The position numbers were made by a program, and so were the translations under genes. A stretch of DNA of 64,000 nucleotides from Dysidea avara. Its lineage: Eukaryota; Porifera; Demospongiae; Dictyoceratida; Dysideidae. The stretch is from the NCBI RefSeq assembly GCF_963678975.1, contig NC_089279.1, positions 32,142,660 to 32,206,659 of the forward strand. The letters are read 5' to 3'. Below, piece by piece: positions 21,801 through 22,623 of the stretch; the stretch's first letter is position 1; each line of letters opens with the position of its first letter. Below the pieces are notes generated by a model. The model worked only from the letters and a program-made list of their open reading frames with translations, ran no database searches and was not told the origin of the DNA.

Positions 21801-22623
21801 TGTATTTCACAATGTACTAATTTTATTATCACACAGGTATGATATATATTCTTCACAACCTCCAATTGCTATTTGCAATACTAGCTGTAATGCATATGAG
21901 GAGTTCAGTTCCTGTTACACACAGTCCCGCAGTTACTATGCTAGTTGTTACTGCAATTATATTATCACTATCTCTTGTTATTATGATTATAATTATAATA
22001 CTTACAATCAGTATGATTATGATGATGATGATGATGATGATGATGATGATGATGATGATGATGATGATGATGATGATGATGATGATGATGATGATGATGA
22101 TGATGATGATGATGATGATGATGATGATGATGATGATGATGATGATGATGATGATGATGATAATACTTACAATCAGTATGATTATGATTATGATGATGAT
22201 GATGATGACAGTAGCGGTATCTCATCTGTTGGAGCAATAATTGGTACCACAATTGGGGGCTTGTCTGTTTGTGGAATTGTTGTGTTGCTGGTTATTTTAC
22301 GTATCTTGGTGAGACATTCCCGCACTCGACAACGGAACTATCAGACCTATATTATTACTCAGCAACGACGTCCAAGAATATTAATAGCCAGAGTGACTCG
22401 TACTACTACAGTACCATCAGGTCCCCCACCACCTCCTCCTTACACTCCAACCCAACCCACTAATGATTATACTCCAGTTCCACCAAGAGGTTATCAACCA
22501 GTTGCTACTGATGACTACACTACTATACCAACTGCTCCATCTAGTGATGTACCATCAGAACCACCACCTGAATATATTCCTACAGCTGATGATGTGCCAC
22601 TGCTTTCTCAGGATACTGTATAA
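15896..22623 (+). CDS. gene B: single-SRCR type I receptor with poly-Asp stalk and PPxY tail
   Basis: Exons 15896-15953, 19000-19165 and 21837-22623 join to 1011 bp, 336 codons plus TAA. Exon 1 is a signal peptide ending TSSVLAG with a phase-1 GT donor. Exon 2 is the first SRCR half (CDNLRIEGG, GRLECQL, GTWGTVC, ACEQLGYY). Exon 3 gives the second half with its cysteine ladder (CNAYEEFSSC, CYCNY, ISC), then 47 consecutive Asp (22021-22161), a second NTYNQYDYD block, a TM helix with small-residue GAIIGTTIGG followed by VVLLVILRILV, and the tail. The tail has PPPY, PPEY and final ADDVPLLSQD, which fit WW-domain binding and an acidic dileucine sorting signal. Ligand unknown. An alternative donor at 19172 would add two residues (YR) in frame. 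The exon join is inferred; no transcript was seen. Confidence 0.88.
16098..16527. mobile_element. PIF/Harbinger-like MITE in intron 1 of B
   Basis: About 35-bp inverted ends GGCCCCTATTCGGTGATTAT / ...CACCAAATAGGGGCC, with 3-bp TSD TAA (16095-16097, 16528-16530). The TWA target and GGCC start fit PIF/Harbinger. The ORFs inside have no transposase motif. Confidence 0.8.
16531..18999 (+). other. rest of intron 1 of gene B
   Basis: No coding frame recognised. It contains a C-rich stretch with repeated TTTGGTCCCCCTATT words (16664-16740) and a TTATTA run next to the acceptor (18963-18982). The acceptor AACAG ends at 18999. Confidence 0.5.
19000..19165 (+). CDS. gene B exon 2 (SRCR first half)
   Basis: 166 bp, phase 1 in and phase 2 out, the same size and phases as gene C exon 2. 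It encodes four SRCR cysteines in C-x-RIEGG...LEC...TVC...AAC. The donor is ATGTATAG, with a competing AG|GTGATA six bases downstream; both keep the frame. Confidence 0.85.
19166..20994 (+). other. intron 2 of gene B, no gene recognised
   Basis: Non-coding. The 80-codon ORF at 20313-20555 has no motif I recognise. Long pyrimidine-rich stretches suggest old, unplaceable repeat remnants. Confidence 0.4.
20995..21420. repeat. dispersed repeat X, copy 2
   Basis: Similar to 2600-3060 (GGTTTGATTTCTTCAC, ACAATNCATG, AAGGTGTCGATTC, TAGCACA). Diverged, non-coding. Confidence 0.45.
21509..21707. repeat. inverted repeat (MITE-like)
   Basis: Arms GGATTAGGGATCAAAG...AAAGTAGTGAAACAAAAGAGG and the reverse complement at 21638-21707. 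The ATAGGGATCAAAG word also opens the palindrome at 59547-59931, so the two may be related. Confidence 0.65.
21837..22623 (+). CDS. gene B exon 3 (SRCR second half, poly-Asp, TM, tail)
   Basis: The exon starts after CAG at 21834-21836 and is open in one frame to TAA 22621-22623. This frame is easily missed because the GAT tract reads as poly-Met or antisense poly-His in other frames. The first methionine-free half can only be reached by splicing, and the join to exon 2 (AT|G) is in phase. Confidence 0.88.
22021..22161 (+). repeat. (GAT)47 coding trinucleotide repeat, poly-Asp
   Basis: 47 uninterrupted GAT codons in the reading frame of gene B, just outside the membrane. It is flanked on both sides by copies of AATACTTACAATCAGTATGA, so a block with this word duplicated and the GAT run expanded between the copies. 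Confidence 0.95.

Follow-up and report, generated by a model that had tools for sequence, protein, structure and literature searches.

An uninterrupted run of 47 aspartates in the juxtamembrane stalk of a predicted SRCR receptor from the sponge Dysidea avara

The window, i.e., the whole 64,000-nucleotide stretch of Dysidea avara DNA that was analysed, contains a gene (gene B below) whose last exon encodes 47 consecutive aspartates as a pure (GAT)47 run. Judging by its domain order, gene B is a single-SRCR, single-pass type I receptor gene, and the run lies in the acidic stalk that links the SRCR domain to the membrane helix. In the reading that we prefer, with a probability of about 0.7, a coding GAT microsatellite was expanded by slippage within an acidic stalk, and its product would serve mainly as a longer, flexible, negatively charged spacer. 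The expansion in length is probably recent. So many aspartates close to a membrane helix would put the charge tolerance of an SRCR receptor stalk to an extreme test. If the tract is polymorphic, a natural length series would allow spacer length and charge to be related to how the receptor works, in an animal whose SRCR repertoire is large.

The tract within receptor gene B

The features of gene B are collected in Table 1. The preliminary description had reported 47 consecutive aspartates in the ectodomain of a receptor, and this is borne out: the run is exact, and the Asp frame is open from stop to stop over 275 codons (21796-22623 including the stop), 228 of them outside (GAT)47. No other perfect trinucleotide run of at least 8 units occurs in the window (single-base runs left out), where even a 10-copy GAT pattern is expected 0.00 times according to 100 dinucleotide shuffles. 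Other frames are open over this stretch too, encoding poly-Met on the + strand and poly-Ile and poly-His on the - strand, and there is no methionine anywhere in the 275-codon Asp frame; therefore, the earlier remark that ATG-to-stop ORF calling hides the poly-Asp is right.

Table 1. Positions of the features of receptor gene B in the window (a slash marks an exon border)
Feature	Position	Strand	Details
Exon, first half of the SRCR domain	19000..19171	+	acceptor ...TTGAACAG/GTTGT, donor ...TATAG/GTGATA
Intron, phase 2	19172..21836	+	GT..AG ends; open frame and SRCR domain after joining
Last exon: SRCR second half, stalk, transmembrane helix, cytoplasmic tail, stop	21837..22623	+	open frame, paralogue matches
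Juxtamembrane stalk, 83 residues, 57 Asp	21979..22227	+	last SRCR cysteine to helix
24-bp direct repeat, left copy, AATACTTACAATCAGTATGATTAT (NTYNQYDY)	21997..22020	+	
(GAT)47, 47 aspartates	22021..22161	+	uninterrupted, exactly 47 copies (regular-expression scan)
24-bp direct repeat, right copy	22162..22185	+	
Transmembrane helix VGAIIGTTIGGLSVCGIVVLLVIL, 24 residues	22228..22299	+	borders set by eye
Cytoplasmic tail, 107 residues, 22 Pro, 7 Tyr	22300..22620	+	
Two PPxY motifs in the tail	22432-22443, 22564-22575	+	

The frame of the tract is fixed from both sides, by the SRCR domain upstream and by the helix and a proline-rich tail that align with the paralogues downstream. When the donor AG/GTGATA is joined to the acceptor before 21837 (CACACAG/GTATGAT), the spliced product matches Pfam PF00530 with 46.4 bits against a curated cut-off of 26.1, covering profile positions 6-99 of 100. 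The tract is thus in the spliced frame and in the ectodomain, as had been claimed, with the helix and its Arg-rich inner flank downstream. It does not lie directly outside the helix, since 22 residues (NTYNQYDYDYDDDDDDSSGISS) intervene. Overall, the interpretation offered in the preliminary description finds partial support.

A profile match to SRCR (E 1.1e-7) is already seen in the frame 18996-19172, and the best solved chain for the spliced domain is M130 (CD163), with E 4.1e-30. Pfam searches returned only SRCR-type families for the spliced ectodomain, only sub-cut-off matches overlapping the acidic run for the last exon, and no family at E 0.1 or better for the helix-tail piece. The helix has a best 19-residue Kyte-Doolittle mean of 2.62, and lysine and arginine around it are distributed 0 in 30 residues outside to 8 in 30 inside. 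Gene B has, in other words, the domain above the curated cut-off that marks the SRCR superfamily, along with the helix and cytoplasmic tail that are common, if not universal, among its members. PPxY motifs, two of which are found in the tail, are common ligands of WW domains, e.g., those of NEDD4-type ligases. An all-against-all comparison of + strand ORFs of at least 20 aa revealed no upstream exon common to gene B and its paralogues C and D, so that no candidate exon for a signal peptide emerged.

A cryptic intron that would remove the tract was considered and seems unlikely. With 11 GT sites in 21837-22020 and four AG sites in 22162-22300 scored, skipping looks weak: on a simple 9-place donor consensus the used donor at 19172 scores 6 and the best of 10 GT sites scores 5 (21977), though the remaining one, at the first base of the exon (21837), scores 7, and the pyrimidine fraction upstream of the four AG sites is 0.35 to 0.55 vs 0.65 at the used acceptor.

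Long pure triplet runs are error-prone in consensus sequences, and gene B is represented by one assembly and one locus (only 1 of 18 family matches is 100% identical to it). It might be supposed that the repeat number is an artefact of assembly, but the run is an exact multiple of three, it is uninterrupted, and its flanks stay in frame, so that we regard this explanation as very improbable. There is little reason to doubt that a long run exists; its exact number may be uncertain.

Paralogues and constraint on the frame

The family set consists of 18 matches, i.e., gene B, 10 others whose stalks were examined with borders set by eye (C, D, L012, L014, L015, L016, L017, L020, L022, and L024, the last kept despite one stop in its match) and seven that were left out: L013, which closely resembles D and contains a stop, four fragments (L018, L019, L021, and L023), and also L025 and L026, in which no stalk could be read. 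Each of the 10 stalks carries a net negative charge, from -1 (L020) to -27 (L024), and no Asp run in them exceeds 4 (L014). Reading of the sequences confirmed a GRNDYDG duplication in C, and the computed net charge agrees with the description of the D stalk as mildly acidic. The SRCR domain is split at the same place in B, C (46936 to 49379), and D (60552 to 61715), while D has an extra intron between the SRCR domain and the stalk (61863 to 61927), where B and C read through. After splicing, the frames of both C and D run uninterrupted to the stop codon. Over the helix and tail, B has 73-80% identity with its five nearest full-length copies that are free of stops. Relatives outside this genome were absent from 163 prokaryote-contig and 35 virus-contig pattern matches, which come from non-animal collections and carry little weight.

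Scattered through the cluster in the window are broken copies of this receptor and fragments of its tail (9530-10544, 26511-26783, and 28731-29065).

Given that broken copies exist in the cluster and that L013 has an in-frame TGA, gene B might itself be decaying, with the tract as a neutral scar in a near-pseudogene. The tail taken alone points in the same direction, as dN/dS exceeds 1 in 11 of 21 pairs of seven copies, including B to D (1.01), B to L012 (1.24), B to L014 (1.23), and B to L016 (1.16). These ratios are noisy because synonymous changes are few: synonymous divergence among the seven copies is 0.04 to 0.20 in the tail (window 22369-22620) vs 0.38 to 1.55 in the helix part, where it is defined in 20 of the 21 pairs. 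Homogenisation of the tail between copies, e.g., by gene conversion, would be one explanation. Over the helix and tail together, B has a dN/dS of 0.57 when compared with C and of 0.60 when compared with D, which argues for mild constraint on the frame; the 21 pairs span 0.39 to 1.10 and exceed 1 in three cases. Decay of gene B also agrees poorly with its usable splice sites, a frame open to the stop, an SRCR domain above the cut-off, the helix, and both PPxY motifs. We consider decay distinctly unlikely, and gene B looks functional but weakly constrained.

Aspartate runs elsewhere in the genome and in known proteins

The assembly searched comprises 550.8 Mb in 108 contigs. A scan of 550 Mb for at least 11 GAT units with A, C, or T as the next base gave 28 places, some of which share an array; runs with other endings escape this count, and one such run is known (L027). 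The reversed pattern occurs at 36 places, so GAT runs are not specially common. Arrays longer than that of gene B are found at L027 (132 units), L068 (116), L084 (70), and L076 (52). Most Asp frames of the longer arrays, as judged by frame length, are short outside the repeats, so an array alone is no argument for function. Some others, e.g., L074 (41 units), could be exons. Among the arrays of at least 20 units that were viewed, only the Asp frame of gene B is tied to homologous genes, on both sides, the others being judged by frame length. At C1:31321947-31323975, a pure GAT array exceeds 500 copies and is cut off by the ends of the loci (L058-L060).

Near C1:31360875 (L061/L085), an exon encoding S-E-(D)14-N-V-T (GAT14) has splice-like signals on both sides. 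A hydrophobic stretch with a basic flank follows directly after this segment and by eye is a likely transmembrane helix. EGF-like frames upstream score 28.3 and 31.5 bits (cut-off 21.5), and their order and strand suggest that they and this exon form one EGF-type receptor gene. At C7:4517390 (L075), an EGF-containing frame is followed by a long Asp-rich stretch of mixed GAT, GAC, and AAT codons with a short Arg run inside.

Poly-Gln, poly-Ala, and short poly-Asp tracts are well-known coding repeats, and gene B has the hallmark of a coding trinucleotide-repeat locus, a pure in-frame triplet run in a predicted exon. Asporin (ASPN) is an extracellular-matrix leucine-rich protein that is not known to have an SRCR domain or a membrane helix. 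Like the product of gene B, it is an extracellular protein with an Asp run, in asporin of variable length, but its run is about 2.6 to 4.3 times shorter, and Pfam finds no leucine-rich repeat body in gene B. In one study, the asporin D-repeat alleles ranged from D11 to D18, and D14 is reported to inhibit TGF-beta1 more than D13 (PMC3241371). Aspein and other Asp-rich shell proteins share a poly-D domain with gene B; aspein, however, is a secreted shell-matrix protein and not a receptor, whereas gene B encodes a helix. The serine-aspartate repeat stalks of staphylococcal Clf/Sdr adhesins are described as acidic, disorder-prone, slippage-variable linkers from a binding domain to an anchor (PMC3324548), but they are bacterial and wall-anchored and consist of Ser-Asp dipeptides with an 18-bp unit, so that the likeness is an analogy only.

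As to SRCR receptors themselves, a massive expansion has been described in sponge and sea urchin, with 296 SRCR genes in Amphimedon and 357 gene models in the purple urchin, arranged, as around gene B, in tandem clusters (PMC10855680). The word stem "aspart", the one stem checked, is absent from the main text of that paper. In the present genome, 150 SRCR matches were scored of 942 candidates. Literature titles and abstract openings, within their partial coverage, gave no receptor with such a poly-Asp juxtamembrane stalk. The poly-Asp tract of gene B would thus be an extreme coding repeat in the stalk of an SRCR receptor, a variation on known themes.

Origin and role of the tract

The codons of the gene B stalk are largely NAT, i.e., GAT, TAT, and AAT (Asp, Tyr, Asn), which makes the stalk a ready substrate for expansion. 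The 24-bp sequence AATACTTACAATCAGTATGATTAT occurs in exact form exactly twice in the window, on the two flanks of (GAT)47. The starting point may have been a short NAT-rich juxtamembrane stalk, rich in Asp, Asn, and Tyr, that was already acidic and disordered, and a small tandem duplication together with replication slippage of a GAT run would be the simplest history. Changes in length by whole units would preserve the frame, and acidic residues outside a helix would be tolerated, the exact length of the tract being probably near neutral within limits. Hairpin-driven expansion was also considered; neither strand of (GAT)47 folds (MFE 0), which favours simple slippage. Variation in length between individuals, proposed in the preliminary description, may be expected of such a run.

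If gene B is transcribed, the product of this history would be a polyanionic spacer that keeps the SRCR domain off the membrane and on which Mg2+/Ca2+ condense in salt water. In a linear charge model with one charge per 0.36 nm in water and textbook constants, the charge parameter of the poly-Asp run is 1.97. This is above the thresholds of counter-ion condensation, so Mg2+ and Ca2+ would condense on the run whether or not there is a specific site. For an ionic strength of 0.7 M, the computed screening length comes to about 0.36 nm, and 47 fully stretched residues would reach about 17 nm. Calcium binding by the stalk, suggested earlier, is possible. None of six metal and calcium terms is found in the text of PMC4491621. 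The poly-Asp run is expected to be disordered, and the most economical role that we can infer for it is that of a soft spacer, long and negatively charged.

Sulfation typically takes place on tyrosines that have acidic residues nearby (PMC7310474, PMC6272617). The gene B stalk has 11 tyrosines among its aspartates, and the genome encodes a relative of protein-tyrosine sulfotransferase (L087, E 2.2e-77 to PDB 9wp1), which makes sulfation of the stalk, adding further charge, plausible.

Another peculiarity concerns the SRCR domains of B, C, and D. SALSA binds cations on its ligand face through D1019, D1020, and E1086 and through D1020, D1058, D1059, and N1081; the substitutions D1019A and D1020A abolish ligand binding, and the sites are described as conserved across SRCR domains (PMC7043408). 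From their spacing, these residues would correspond to the motifs CDD, LDD, and N-C-x-H-x-E. In the eight best SRCR matches of the genome, a sample biased to the consensus, CDD is kept in 8/8, the first Asp of LDD in 8/8 and the second in 4/8, and HxED in 8/8. The aligned frames at 18996-19172 (B), 46758-46937 (C), and 60368-60553 (D), with their second exons, have CLS, CSS, and CKS, respectively, in place of CDD, and their counterparts of LDD are AIC, AIC, and AVC. The Glu of HxED is replaced by Tyr in B (CNYI replaces the whole motif), by His then Asp in C, and by Asp in D. Gene B thus lacks the acidic residues of both surface cation sites, which are widely conserved but outside the Pfam definition, and because the Asp pairs are missing, it probably binds its ligand without the usual cation bridge. 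This loss of the Asp pairs in the B/C/D subfamily is a second testable oddity.

The missing Asp pairs might mean that the stalk itself is a functional polyanion, with poly-Asp (and sulfated Tyr) binding divalent ions or cationic ligands and with length under selection. The effect of the SALSA substitutions, the tyrosines together with the sulfotransferase relative, and the D14 adjoining a likely helix in an EGF-type receptor would all suit this proposal. Yet C and D have lost the Asp pairs as well, and their stalks are ordinary and mildly acidic, which disfavours the connection between acidic stalks and cation-site loss that one might speculate on. Moreover, D keeps an acidic residue at the site Glu, L012 and L014 keep HRED and HYDD (in both, the second SRCR half was read), and the purity of the run speaks for youth rather than long selection. 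We regard a selected polyanion as rather unlikely. A bolder version, to which we would give little credence, holds that the lineage gave up most SRCR cation sites and relies on a sulfated polyanionic stalk for ion-dependent behaviour, that slippage gives each individual its own spacer length and charge, and that the EGF-type receptor with D14 arrived independently at the same solution.

Apart from the receptor cluster, the window holds frames of retroelements at 11032-15208 (+) and 38090-40426 (-), which from their motifs we take to be a Ty1/copia-like element and a LINE-like reverse transcriptase, respectively. Large minisatellite fields occupy 5435-8878, where the units measure about 30/61 bp, and 32878-37910, where they measure about 26 bp.
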